From the NCBI GenBank assembly GCA_938034385.1, contig CALHLC010000026.1, positions 1-34,604 of the forward strand: 34,604 nucleotides of DNA, written 5' to 3'. Made by a program: the position numbers and the translations under genes. The notes below the pieces were generated by a model. That model was not told the origin of the DNA. It saw only the letters and a program-made list of their open reading frames with translations, and did not search any database. This DNA is from an uncultured Bacteriovoracaceae bacterium (GTDB lineage: Bacteria; Bdellovibrionota; Bacteriovoracia; Bacteriovoracales; Bacteriovoracaceae). How positions within the stretch are numbered: position 1 is the first letter of the stretch; each line of letters opens with the position of its first letter. Positions 2,759-7,689 of this stretch are shown here, one piece after another.

Positions 2759-3208
2759 TTAATATACTTCTTTAGGTGTAATAGAATTAATAGGCTTGTC
2801 ACCTATCCATGGATAAACATCTTGAGTAAGTCTTCTATAAATTTTAACTTTGTAATTCTCACTCCATTTAGGTTCTTGCCTGCCATACCACTCTTCACCT
2901 ACTGATTTAAAAGTATTTTGAAGTGACTCTGATTTTTTATTCTTTTCATATCGTCTTGTTTCACTTGGATCAATATTTTTCGCTATTGATAACTTCGCCT
3001 CACTCTTTTTAAGCCTAGCTTCTTTAAGATCAACTTGAGGATAAACACCAAAAGAGATTCTTTTCTCCTTTCCGTTAAACCTATACTTTAATCTCCAGTA
3101 CTTTCTTCCCTTAGGAGTAATCTCTAGATATAAACCCTCTCCATCAAAAAGCTTTTGAGTCTTCTCTGTAGGTTTAGCATTTCTAACTTTTGTAGCTGTT
3201 AACTTCAT
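2759..3208 (-). pseudogene. P4-type tyrosine integrase, N-terminal remnant
   Basis: The 149 residues match the N-terminal arm-binding domain (DUF4102) of P4-like integrases: LTATKVRNAKPTEKT, a FDGEGLYLEITPKG-like strand, WRLKYRF, and the ARLKKSEAKLSIAKNIDP helix. The start of the SAM-like core-binding domain follows (about residues 96-149). The catalytic tyrosine recombinase domain (R..HxxR..Y) is absent, and full-length proteins are about 400 residues. The start is supported by GGAAGGAG ten bases upstream of ATG. The gene lies 185 bases downstream of the 3' end of tRNA-Ala on the same strand. That is the usual arrangement for an island integrated at a tRNA, here decayed. Confidence 0.75.
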
Positions 3209-3393: not shown

Positions 3394-3469
3394 TGGTGGA
3401 GATGACAAGGATCGAACTTGCGACCTCTTCGCTGCCAGCGAAGCGCTCTCCCAACTGAGCTACACCCCC
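3394..3469 (-). tRNA. tRNA-Ala (anticodon GGC)
   Basis: A complete cloverleaf can be folded by eye. The acceptor stem GGGGGTG pairs with CATCTCC, allowing G-T pairs. The D-arm follows with GCTC/GAGC. The anticodon stem CTTCG/CGAAG encloses loop CTGGCAG with anticodon GGC at 3436-3434, and the TTCGATC loop is present. The 3' ACCA is encoded (3397-3394), giving 76 nt. The 5' ten bases overlap the end of the glycosyltransferase gene. It is the probable former attachment site for the integrase remnant downstream. Confidence 0.95.
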
Positions 3470-4299
3470 ATTACTGAATTTAAAATATAACTAATTTCAT
3501 CGTAGTTATCAAGATTGTTATGTTTCTTATATCCCTTTAATAATATCTCTGCCTTTTTTATAAGAACGCCTTTTGCTAATACTCTCTGATCTTCACTTAA
3601 ATCAAGATGTTCAAGAATCCACTTAATAGATTTCACCCGGTAGTAATCCATTGCAAAAAACTTTCTTGAAAGTTGATCTTCATGTCCACCATATTTTTCT
3701 ATAAGTTCTTCATCTATAAAACCCACTTTTTCTGTCGCACAAATTTTCAACCAAAGATCATAATCTTCACAAACAAGATAATCTTCCCTAAAGCCTCTCC
3801 ACTTCTGAAGTAACTCTCTTTTCAAACACACTGTTGATGGACTTATCACACATAACTCTAAACAACGCTCAAATTGATCGCCACCACCTTTTACATGCTT
3901 TTTCATTTGATTTACCCTAAGCTCATTTCTAATCCATCTCTCTTGAGTGTGATTGATCTGAAATCCTGGGAATTCTTTTATAAATTCAAATTGTCTTTCT
4001 AGTTTTGAAGGTAACCACTGATCATCTGAATCTAGAAAGCAGACCCATGGAGCAGAAGTATTCTCTATACCATGATTTCTAGCTCGACTTACTCCTTGAG
4101 GAGCATCTCTTTTAGAAATAGTTAAATACTTTATGCTTCTAGAATCTAAGTACTCAACAGTTCCATCACTTGAGCCATCATCAATAATGAGAAATTCAAA
4201 TTCTTTAAAACTCTGATTCAAAACGGAATCAATTGATTTTTTTAAAAAGTCTAAACGATTATATGTTGGGATAATAACTGAGAAAAATTTTTTACTCAT
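3460..4299 (-). CDS. Family 2 glycosyltransferase
   Basis: The protein should transfer a sugar from a nucleotide-sugar donor to an acceptor in surface polysaccharide synthesis, at the cytoplasmic face of the membrane. The GT-A fold signs are VIIPTYNR (8-15), DDGSSDGT (40-47), the metal-binding DxD at 90-92 (FLDSDD) and a C-terminal CEDYDLWLKI, where the ED pair usually supplies the catalytic base. At 279 residues it is a single-domain enzyme with no membrane segment. It overlaps the upstream aldo/keto reductase by 8 bases, so the two are translationally coupled. Its TAG stop uses tRNA-Ala bases 8-10. The sugar and acceptor cannot be told. Confidence 0.88.
   Translation of the reverse strand: MSKKFFSVIIPTYNRLDFLKKSIDSVLNQSFKEFEFLIIDDGSSDGTVEYLDSRSIKYLTISKRDAPQGVSRARNHGIENTSAPWVCFLDSDDQWLPSKLERQFEFIKEFPGFQINHTQERWIRNELRVNQMKKHVKGGGDQFERCLELCVISPSTVCLKRELLQKWRGFREDYLVCEDYDLWLKICATEKVGFIDEELIEKYGGHEDQLSRKFFAMDYYRVKSIKWILEHLDLSEDQRVLAKGVLIKKAEILLKGYKKHNNLDNYDEISYILNSVMGV
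3484..3512 (-). promoter_or_regulatory. Promoter for tRNA-Ala inside the GT2 gene
   Basis: On the minus strand, TTGATA (3512-3507), a 17-base spacer and TATATT (3489-3484) form a near-consensus sigma70 promoter. Transcription would start about 8 bases before the mature tRNA 5' end. It lies entirely within the last codons of the glycosyltransferase gene. Confidence 0.65.
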
Positions 4300-5289: not shown

Positions 5290-6309
5290 ATGAAATTACT
5301 CTGTTTTGCTCATAGAAATGAAGCTAAAACATTTTTTGATCGTCTAAAACTATCACCTTTAGATACGTCTCTCAATCTATTTAAATCCAAAAATGAATTC
5401 ATCCTAATTTCAGGTGAAGGCATACAAAGTACCACTGAATTATTAAGTATAGTACTTTCAAAATATGAAAACATTAGTGAAATTATAAACTATGGTATCG
5501 CGGGATCTCTTGATAAATCGCTTAAGGAAAATTCTATTTTTTCAATTAGAACAGTCTACCAATACTTCGATGATTTTTCTTTTAAAAGCCATACTTCTCA
5601 CGATAAGCAAGCAACTATCGATTTAATTAGTGTTCATAAAAGAATTTATTCACCGGAAGATAAATTAAAGCTCTCCATCTATGCACATTTACTTGATATG
5701 GAAACATGGGCCCTTGCTTCTGTAGCCAAGAGATTTAAAAAGAAATGGAAATCTTATAAAACTGTTTCCGACTCTCTTGATGAGGCAACTAAATGCCAAC
5801 AAATAGCAAATGAAGCAAAATTTTACTCAGATCTTTTCTGGAATCACTTCATAAATACTAAAGAACAATCTCCTCTTTCTGAATCATCAAGAAATCTAAT
5901 ACTAGAAAATTCATCTTTGTATTTCACTCATACTCAGGCCCATCAAATAAGAAAATATTGTAAAAGCTTAATCCTTAGAGATCCATCTTTCCTAGAAAGT
6001 TTTACTTCTTCAAAAAAATATAAATCTATTGTAGAAAGTGAGAAATCTAGAAAAGAAAAATCAAAAGAAGTCCTAAATCTTCTGGCAACAGACTATGACC
6101 CTATTACTTTTAAAGAATTACAAAGAACTCAAAAAGTATTTAAATCCTTAAAAAATCAATATTTAAATTTTGATCACTCAGAATATATTGAAAAAAATTC
6201 AATTAAATTCAAAGGTCAATTTAAAAGCTCTAACGATCTTAGAAATATCATAAGAACTTTAGAAAAAATCAACATTGATGAACTCAAAGGCAAATCTAAA
6301 GATGTTTAA
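5290..6309 (+). CDS. Nucleoside phosphorylase-fold protein (MTAN-like) with extension
   Basis: The first ~190 residues resemble the PNP/UDP phosphorylase superfamily, closest in style to MTA/SAH nucleosidase. NYGIAGSL (67-74) matches the ribose/phosphate loop (NTGSAGGL in MTAN), and DMETWAL (136-142) matches the substrate-binding VEMEATA strand. VSDSLDE (159-165) matches the catalytic Asp loop, and E11 could be the second acid. The remaining ~150 residues are charged, helical and unlike the family. The start is set at the ATG at 5290, because upstream in-frame codons lie inside the divergent gene's leader. The last 8 bases overlap the radical SAM gene. A possible role is cleaving 5'-deoxyadenosine or a related nucleoside made by that enzyme. 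This is an inference. Confidence 0.6.
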   Translation: MKLLCFAHRNEAKTFFDRLKLSPLDTSLNLFKSKNEFILISGEGIQSTTELLSIVLSKYENISEIINYGIAGSLDKSLKENSIFSIRTVYQYFDDFSFKSHTSHDKQATIDLISVHKRIYSPEDKLKLSIYAHLLDMETWALASVAKRFKKKWKSYKTVSDSLDEATKCQQIANEAKFYSDLFWNHFINTKEQSPLSESSRNLILENSSLYFTHTQAHQIRKYCKSLILRDPSFLESFTSSKKYKSIVESEKSRKEKSKEVLNLLATDYDPITFKELQRTQKVFKSLKNQYLNFDHSEYIEKNSIKFKGQFKSSNDLRNIIRTLEKINIDELKGKSKDV

Positions 6310-7294
6310 AAAAGTTTTGGTAGAGAAAGAAGTTCTTAATAATCCAAATACAATTCATATTTTAAGTAAGCTCCCAAAAGCTAAACCTATTATTATAGAT
6401 GATCTCGATCAATACTGGGGAAAAGTAAAAAAACCCTATTTACAAAAAAGAGATAATTTAAACTTATTCATAGGAAAAAAAAGAGGAACTCTCGTTAAGC
6501 CTGCACCTGATGCATACGGTGTGAGTGGAGATCCACACTACTATTTCATTCACTCATATAATTGTATCTATGAGTGCCAATATTGTTTTTTACAGGGATA
6601 TTTTCATACCCCTGATTTAGTTTTATATGTAAATCATGATGAAATCTTAAAGGAGATAAAATCAATCCTTGTAGAGCATCCCAATGCTTGGTTTCACGCT
6701 GGTGAATTCAGCGATAGCTTAGCATTAAACCATATTACGAATGAGTGGTCTCAATACTGGGATTTTTTTAAAAATAATCCCAAAGCAAAATTAGAATTAA
6801 GAACAAAGTCGGTGAATATTAAAAATATTCTACCTCTTGAGCCATTAAAAAATGTCCTCCTTACCTTCTCCCTTTCTCCTCAAGATCCTTCAAAGGAATT
6901 TGATCTCAAAACTCCAAGTACTCGAGCTAAAATTAAAGCAATCAAACAATTAAGTGATGCAGGTTTCCAAATAGGAATTCACTTTGATCCAATAATATAT
7001 TCTGAGAAGTTACAAATTCAATACACACAATTAATTAACGATCTTTTAGAAAACACTAATATAGATCAAATTAATTATTTCTCTTTAGGCGTTGTTAGAT
7101 ATACTAAGGATGTCTATAGACAAGTAGAACTCAACTACCCTGACTCTAAATTACATTCTCATCCTTATATCAAAAGCTTTGATAATAAGATCAGATATTC
7201 AAGGCCTATGAGAAATTGGTTATTATCAACAGTAAAAAACATTCTTTTATCTAAAGATGTTCACGAGTCAAGGATCTATTTATGCATGGAGTAA
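6302..7294 (+). CDS. Spore photoproduct lyase-like radical SAM enzyme
   Basis: The 330-residue protein has the radical SAM CX3CX2C cluster motif at C88, C92 and C95 (YNCIYECQYCF). The surrounding SPL-family pattern includes a SGDPHYYF-like strand, a YCFLQGY sequence, a WFHAGEFSDSLALNHIT stretch (130-146), LRTKS and a TFSLSP strand. SPL itself repairs the spore photoproduct in DNA using a 5'-deoxyadenosyl radical. No spore-forming context exists here, and the hydrogen-donor Cys of genuine SPL is not seen at the aligned GEFSDS position, so another substrate is likely. The start at 6302 overlaps the upstream stop (ATGTTTAA). Upstream in-frame ATGs lie well inside the previous gene. It shares its last 13 bases with the next gene. 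Confidence 0.75.
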   Translation: MFKKVLVEKEVLNNPNTIHILSKLPKAKPIIIDDLDQYWGKVKKPYLQKRDNLNLFIGKKRGTLVKPAPDAYGVSGDPHYYFIHSYNCIYECQYCFLQGYFHTPDLVLYVNHDEILKEIKSILVEHPNAWFHAGEFSDSLALNHITNEWSQYWDFFKNNPKAKLELRTKSVNIKNILPLEPLKNVLLTFSLSPQDPSKEFDLKTPSTRAKIKAIKQLSDAGFQIGIHFDPIIYSEKLQIQYTQLINDLLENTNIDQINYFSLGVVRYTKDVYRQVELNYPDSKLHSHPYIKSFDNKIRYSRPMRNWLLSTVKNILLSKDVHESRIYLCME

Positions 7295-7689
7295 AACACT
7301 TTCACTATAAAAACTTTTGGGGAGAGATCAAGATCACGACAGATACTATAAACCAAGAATTTTTTGTTAAACCTTTAAAAGGAATCACTCCAGAACTTAT
7401 TAAGCTAGACCTTAATGAAGCACTAAAGTTTTCAACAAAAGTCTCTTCATTTGATTACATTGTTGATATTTCTGATTTGTATTTTGCTCACCCTGTTAAT
7501 TTCCTCTATCTCTTGAAATTACAAAAAATCCCACAATTAACTAATCACTACGTTATCTCAAAATATAGAATCCAGAGATTCTTTGCTACAATTTTCAAAA
7601 AGTTCCTAACAATAGAAAAAGTCTTTGAATCAATGGATCAATACCGGACTTATAAACTTTTGGAGCAACAAATTTCTGACGATAGTTAA
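7282..7689 (+). CDS. Small conserved-looking protein in radical SAM unit
   Basis: The 135-residue protein is not recognised. It has no signal peptide or membrane span. Alternating strands and helices (FWGEIKITTD, FFVKPLKGIT, FDYIVDISDLYFAHP, YVISKYRIQRFF) faintly recall STAS/SpoIIAA-like or Sec14-like folds, but no diagnostic motif is seen. It starts within the last 13 bases of the radical SAM gene, with AAGGA 10 bases upstream of ATG, so it is translationally coupled. That tight coupling suggests it works with the other two products, perhaps as an accessory or docking subunit. Confidence 0.5.
   Translation: MHGVKHFHYKNFWGEIKITTDTINQEFFVKPLKGITPELIKLDLNEALKFSTKVSSFDYIVDISDLYFAHPVNFLYLLKLQKIPQLTNHYVISKYRIQRFFATIFKKFLTIEKVFESMDQYRTYKLLEQQISDDS

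Follow-up and report, generated by a model that had tools for sequence, protein, structure and literature searches.

A nucleosidase-fold protein encoded with a spore photoproduct lyase-like radical SAM enzyme in Bacteriovoracales points to a two-protein enzyme

Introduction

In spore photoproduct lyase (SPL), the H-donor Cys141 is essential for clean repair and for SAM recycling, and in SPL that is devoid of this cysteine the product radical is not quenched in the usual way (PMC5368176). Nucleosidases can be tied to radical SAM chemistry on the product side. MTAN cleaves 5'-deoxyadenosine, an inhibitor of radical SAM enzymes, and relief of this inhibition is established for radical SAM enzymes other than the one described below (PMC8102628). 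The option of a nucleosidase acting on a special product has a precedent in HpnH/HpnG (PMC12583986).

Here we analyse a locus in a window of 34,604 nucleotides, the whole stretch of DNA under study, which is part of contig C26 of an uncultured Bacteriovoracaceae bacterium (genome of 2.67 Mb, 99% complete). The locus encodes a two-domain protein with a nucleosidase fold, P1, directly followed by an SPL-like radical SAM enzyme, P2. A literature search returned no description of the P1-P2 pair, and no assigned reaction was found for SPL-like enzymes of the Glu type to which P2 belongs.

Results

Gene layout of the locus

The preliminary description had reported three open reading frames on the same strand with overlaps of 8 and 13 bases, and the coordinates agree with this (Table 1). 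At some distance, an integrase-like short fragment of 149 residues (2759-3208, minus strand) adjoins a tRNA-Ala gene (3394-3469, minus strand) and looks like the remnant of an integrated element. Elsewhere, the source genome holds two MTAN-like genes as well as one gene for a purine nucleoside phosphorylase and one for an AMP-nucleosidase-like protein.

Table 1. Features of the P1-P2 locus, in positions of the window.
Feature	Position	Strand	Basis
Glycosyltransferase family 2, after the aldo/keto reductase	3460..4299	-	PF00535, 111 bits
Aldo/keto reductase, divergent to P1	4292..5254	-	PF00248, 193 bits
P1, two-domain partner protein, 339 aa	5290..6309 (ATG 5290, stop 6309)	+	ORF; PF01048, 31.6 bits; AlphaFold2 model
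P1 N-terminal MTAN/PNP-fold domain, residues 1-192 (about)	5290..5865	+	Structural match to MTAN
P1 catalytic residues E11, E138, D161	5320-5322; 5701-5703; 5770-5772	+	Equivalents of E12/E174/D197(Ec)
P1 C-terminal helical domain (CTD), residues 213-339, proposed radical SAM-docking domain	5926..6306	+	Homology to the C-terminal domain of ParB-type partners
P1/P2 overlap, 8 bp, ATGTTTAA	6302..6309	+	ORF coordinates
P2, SPL-superfamily radical SAM enzyme, 330 aa	6302..7294 (ATG 6302, stop 7294)	+	ORF; PF20903, 87.9 bits; AlphaFold2 model
Radical SAM motif CX3CX2C (C88/C92/C95), with Y94 = Tyr97(Bs)	6563..6586	+	Alignment
P2 E135, at the SPL H-donor position Cys140(Gt)/Cys141(Bs)	6704..6706	+	Alignment
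P2/P3 overlap, 13 bp	7282-7294	+	ORF coordinates
P3, small protein, 135 aa, outside the conserved unit	7282..7689 (ATG 7282, stop 7689)	+	ORF

Distribution of the pair

The relatives taken by name were Bacteriovoracaceae, Halobacteriovoraceae and similar Bdellovibrionota. P1 lies immediately upstream of P2 in all 77 testable loci, that is, those in which the contig extends far enough to show P1, among 80 named loci from Bacteriovoracales and Calditrichota. PNP-type P2 was found in 101 genomes of a Bdellovibrionota sample of 369, and 99 of these encode P1 too; in the two others P2 sits at the start of a contig. The two genes overlap by 1-11 bp in 66 of 76 relatives, the commonest value being the exact 8 bp of our locus (38/76), a recurrence that exceeds coincidence. 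One genome (75% complete) encodes P1 with its CTD, and no P2 was found in it.

The three-gene order expected from the preliminary description is therefore conserved beyond close relatives for P1-P2, which recurs in different genera and families and in a further phylum, but not for P3. Homologues of P3, which has no Pfam or NCBIfam match, were found only in the source genus and once in a further genome, there on a contig apart from P1-P2. This genus-limited distribution and the unlinked copy rule out P3 as a third component, and the proposal that a coupled small protein belongs to the unit had to be abandoned. P1 and P2 form an obligate pair, with P3 outside it.

The nucleosidase domain of P1

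In its N-terminal half, P1 matches the nucleoside phosphorylase/nucleosidase superfamily in Pfam (PF01048) with 31.6 bits against a cut-off of 25.1. It stays below every NCBIfam equivalog cut-off, with 17.6 bits for PRK05584 (169 needed), 40.6 bits for PRK07164 (161) and 23.7 bits for HpnG (187.1). An AlphaFold2 model built from 30 relatives has a mean pLDDT of 88.6 and shows two domains connected by a flexible, low-confidence linker (residues 194-199). The best structural match of the N-terminal domain is the C. jejuni MTAN (PDB code 6aym; Z = 24.8, 192 aligned residues, r.m.s.d. = 2.2), and futalosine hydrolase is also among the top neighbours, with Z-scores of 24.2 (H. pylori) and 23.9. Profile alignment equates E138 and D161 with E174(Ec) and D197(Ec), and the structural register equates E11 with E12(Ec). 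All three residues are invariant in 76 of 76 P1 proteins and in a Fusobacterium fusion protein described below. The PNP/UDP fold with MTAN-like residues that had been proposed for the first product is borne out by the MTAN-type fold, and the alignments and the structural register show the catalytic triad to be kept.

The pocket itself appears altered. The positions of Met9, Ile50 and Met173 of MTAN, which line the 5' side of the pocket, correspond in the alignment to H8, E43 and R137 in P1, with Met at the third in 3 of 76 rows, among them the source P1. Since these residues differ from the hydrophobic MTAN set and offer, as far as the sequence tells, no obvious fit to a 5'-methyl group, P1 may act on a substrate other than 5'-deoxyadenosine or MTA. 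Three further residues, F98, S100 and C169, set P2-linked P1 apart: they are conserved there and mostly absent from bare nucleosidase homologues.

The SPL-like radical SAM enzyme P2

P2 matches PF20903 with 87.9 bits (gathering score 27), and scores 102.2 bits against TIGR04070 (spore photoproduct lyase), far below the curated cut-off of 400. Its AlphaFold2 model (pLDDT 89.2) superposes on the Geobacillus SPL structures 4fhc/4rh0 with a Z-score of 32.3 over 314 residues (r.m.s.d. = 2.6), while the next radical SAM structures reach only Z = 15.5, and MqnE Z = 13.2. The family match and the full-length SPL fold confirm the SPL-like radical SAM identity that the second product had been given.

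The cluster motif and Y94 are invariant in 30 of 30 close relatives and in all SPL-like rows compared. The first relay tyrosine is kept; at the second, 81 of 83 PNP-type P2 rows have Tyr and the source P2 has Phe. At the Cys141(Bs) position, Glu is found in 83/83 PNP-type rows and in 35/35 rows of the ParB-type, ParB-like or CTD-only kind; the Bacillus, Nostoc and Granulicella proteins keep Cys. Because an invariant Glu stands for the H-donor Cys, P2 is, on these alignments, not an SPL proper. A C-terminal Y-x-C-M-E motif (P2 residues 325-330) is invariant in PNP-type P2, and its C328 could serve as an alternative H-donor. C-M-E is kept in ParB-type and partnerless P2 relatives, and not in SPL proper. 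Two loci, in genomes G016 and G063, encode a third SPL-like type in which Gln takes the Cys141 position and Ser replaces the second relay Tyr; neither locus has the partner gene.

The C-terminal domain and alternative partners

Distant families of Bdellovibrionota have a different partner, whose gene precedes that of a related radical SAM enzyme and abuts or overlaps its start. The C-terminal half of these partners matches the P1 CTD with E-values down to 8e-11, but their N-terminal half is either ParB_N (40.9 and 42.1 bits) or ParB-like in a diverged form; two consist of the C-terminal part only. Compared with hhalign, the CTDs of P1 and of the ParB-type partners align with a probability of 97.1 (E = 5.7e-11, 124 columns), and the ParB partners match the ParB-like ones (E = 6.9e-14). 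The N-terminal domains of P1 and of the ParB partners, in contrast, gave no match in a profile comparison (probability 0.1), and Pfam finds no ParB_N in P1. Partners of the ParB_N, ParB-like or CTD-only kind lie directly upstream of SPL-like radical SAM genes in many Bdellovibrionota families; no partner was assigned at two loci, one of them at a contig edge.

The P2 tree places the PNP-type rows in one group (support 97/94) and the ParB-type rows in a separate one (96/93), and the PNP-type group adjoins a group of Fusobacterium and gut-contig sequences with a joint support of 100/97. With the same CTD on both kinds of partner, the CTD and the radical SAM enzyme are the constant core, which makes the nucleosidase a swapped-in, lineage-specific alternative to the ParB-like module.

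Fusobacterium vincentii (NZ_CP084075, ~1191769-1193607) encodes an MTAN-like domain and an SPL-like domain in a single open reading frame of 624 residues. The N-terminal domain of this fusion matches the P1 nucleosidase in profile comparison (probability 84.6, E = 6.9e-6), and Tyr occupies the Cys141 position. A CTD homologue sought in the fusion by the same approach reached a probability of only 0.4, so we limit the claim to a nucleosidase-SPL fusion. Although entered as a plasmid, this record is 2.1 Mb long and so probably a chromosome. A plasmid search with the fusion returned itself as the only match, and viral contigs scanned with the same query and with its relative from the gut yielded none. 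Two unverified and unannotated 'phage' records have an SPL match, and one of them carries bacterial-looking genes. The dedicated partner postulated beside the radical SAM enzyme is thus upheld by a near-absolute P1-P2 linkage and by the fusion, but it is not shared by the sister families, which have a ParB-like partner instead.

Neighbouring genes and genomes lacking P2

In 62 loci the aldo/keto reductase gene and P1 are arranged divergently, with at most 140 bp between them in 55. The glycosyltransferase, present in 34 of the 80 loci, is a weaker conserved neighbour. Neither gene is linked to the pair in Calditrichota, and for this reason the reductase is not a core part. At six loci, in several Bacteriovorax, an efflux/ABC-transporter-like gene set is inserted directly upstream of P1; this insertion displaces the reductase and leaves P1-P2 intact. 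In other Bacteriovoracales P2 is often followed by a 2OG-Fe(II) oxygenase gene, present at 50 of the 80 loci and abutting or overlapping P2 in 26 of these 50. The oxygenase (PF13640, for example at loci L073, L080 and L130) has a conserved HxD...H...R motif. It is absent from the source genome and genus, which rules it out as a core part. Repair genes do not recur in the neighbourhood of P1-P2.

Within the family, four genomes that have no PNP-type P2 (G041, G063, G026 and G137) carry the reductase with a divergent bare nucleosidase of 195-220 residues and no CTD, and by coordinates the same arrangement is found in two more (G014 and G020), also without PNP-type P2. In these genomes the CTD is absent together with P2 and the nucleosidase stays with the reductase; the CTD therefore goes with P2, and the nucleosidase with the reductase. 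In Bacteriovoracales, reductase and glycosyltransferase are conserved divergently beside the nucleosidase domain even where P2 has been lost.

Discussion

P1 and P2 occur together in about 100 genomes of predatory bacteria and also in another phylum, a distribution that suggests a two-protein enzyme not described before. Our leading reading, tentative and with somewhat less than an even chance of being right, is that the obligate pair works as one enzyme in which the P1 nucleosidase hydrolyses the SAM-derived adenosyl product of P2. Going by its fold, P2 would act on a nucleic-acid-like substrate. It probably uses up SAM, because the SAM-recycling Cys of SPL is replaced by Glu, and would release 5'-deoxyadenosine or an adenosyl-derived product. 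The P1 CTD may dock on P2 or on its substrate, as suggested by the exact co-occurrence and by the presence of the same domain on ParB-like partners. The nucleosidase would then convert the adenosyl product to adenine and a 5-deoxyribose-type sugar and so drive turnover, a step to which fold, triad and fusion all point. In Bacteriovoracales, one may further speculate that the divergent aldo/keto reductase reduces the freed sugar. Salvage of 5-deoxyribose by methylthioribose kinase was rejected, the best match in the genome (82 bits) lying below the cut-off of 275. An anti-phage defence system was rejected as well, given that no PADLOC-DB family matched at E 0.01.

Relief of product inhibition, the role originally suggested for the nucleosidase, is favoured by the P1-P2 linkage and the intact triad. 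However, such a partner is not universal for this radical SAM lineage, the bare form occurs without P2, and other MTAN-like genes exist. As the genome already has two MTAN-like proteins, generic relief is not a sufficient explanation, and a dedicated P1 suggests local channelling or a special product. Against our leading reading stand these two proteins, the bare nucleosidase kept with the reductase, the seemingly polar 5' pocket of P1, the single 75% complete genome in which P1 with its CTD was found and P2 was not, and the ParB-type sister systems, which have the same Glu and no nucleosidase.

A special product is central to a different and rather unlikely scheme, modelled on HpnH/HpnG or on MqnE with futalosine hydrolase, in which P2 would add the 5'-deoxyadenosyl radical to its substrate and P1 would strip off adenine, leaving a 5-substituted ribose that the reductase would reduce and the glycosyltransferase may decorate. 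The high rank of futalosine hydrolase among the structural neighbours of P1, the nucleosidase-reductase-glycosyltransferase order kept in many Bacteriovoracales and the HpnH/HpnG precedent (PMC12583986) fit such adenosyl transfer, as do the unquenched product radical of Cys-less SPL (PMC5368176) and a seemingly polar 5' pocket, which would suit a substrate that exceeds 5'-deoxyadenosine in size or polarity. The fold of P2, however, is that of SPL and not HpnH- or MqnE-like, and the reductase and glycosyltransferase are unlinked in Calditrichota; in genomes devoid of PNP-type P2, moreover, the reductase is still found beside the bare nucleosidase. The source genome also has no squalene-hopene cyclase (no PF13243 match), which rules out a strict hopanoid-type pathway.

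The SPL fold of P2 and the ParB_N domain of the sister partners would equally suit a DNA or RNA repair or modification complex whose partner N-domain picks or processes the target, being a ParB-like DNA binder in most Bdellovibrionota and handling bases in a nucleosidase-like manner in Bacteriovoracales, with clean-up of 5'-deoxyadenosine incidental. SplB-like radical SAM enzymes have been reported beside SOS and repair genes (PMC3765255). A Deinococcus SPL-family gene, moreover, adjoins dinB and uracil-DNA glycosylase. We nevertheless regard this complex as doubtful, since repair genes do not recur beside P1-P2 and we know of no PNP-fold enzyme that excises bases from polymeric nucleic acid. 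The persistence of the bare nucleosidase with the reductase, without P2, means that the nucleosidase domain may serve another pathway. In its full form this would make the P1 N-domain mainly the nucleosidase of the reductase locus, fused to a P2 partner domain and taking no share in the P2 reaction. The six genomes with bare nucleosidase and divergent reductase are in line with such a housekeeping role, but we consider it quite unlikely: the full pair occurs without the reductase in Calditrichota, a nucleosidase domain is fused to SPL in Fusobacterium, and P2-linked P1 conserves F98, S100 and C169, which the bare homologues have mostly lost.

At its widest, the locus could belong to a modular radical SAM system for nucleic-acid repair or modification, built from a Glu-type SPL-derived enzyme and a partner that joins a constant docking domain to an interchangeable half, either ParB-like and DNA-binding or an MTAN-like nucleosidase. 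The nucleosidase form would install or remove a deoxyadenosyl-derived group on DNA or RNA, the nucleosidase finishing the reaction on the product. We think this quite unlikely. If the Glu-type enzyme does carry out new nucleic-acid chemistry, a further pathway for repair or modification would be present throughout Bdellovibrionota. Three features together offer a concrete route to the substrate: the obligate partner with its exchangeable module, the natural fusion, and the genomes that miss both the docking domain and the enzyme. The same set bears on the question of whether radical SAM enzymes enlist partners dedicated to clearing their products.

Comparison with known systems

With MTAN (Pfs/MtnN) and futalosine hydrolase (MqnB), P1 shares the fold and the E12/E174/D197(Ec) triad, but it has an extra C-terminal domain, a shorter middle region and sequence-level differences in the 5' pocket, and meets no equivalog cut-off. 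P2 shares with SplB (PF20903/TIGR04070) the full-length fold, the CX3CX2C motif and the equivalents of Tyr97(Bs) and Asp144(Bs); it differs in the invariant Glu for Cys141(Bs), in its obligate partner protein and in a host not known as a spore former. HpnH/HpnG and MqnE/MqnB likewise tie a radical SAM enzyme functionally to a PNP-fold nucleosidase, whereas P2 is of another radical SAM family, P1 carries an extra domain and the genome has no hopanoid cyclase. The SplB-like radical SAM enzymes associated with DUF4130 and uracil-DNA glycosylase (PMC3765255) also have a partner gene, but the partner of P2 is of a different family and the DUF4130-type association is not seen here. Unlike ParB/Spo0J-type proteins, P1 is devoid of a ParB_N domain, yet its CTD is common to the ParB_N-containing partners of related radical SAM enzymes, and both kinds of partner are encoded immediately before an SPL-like radical SAM enzyme.
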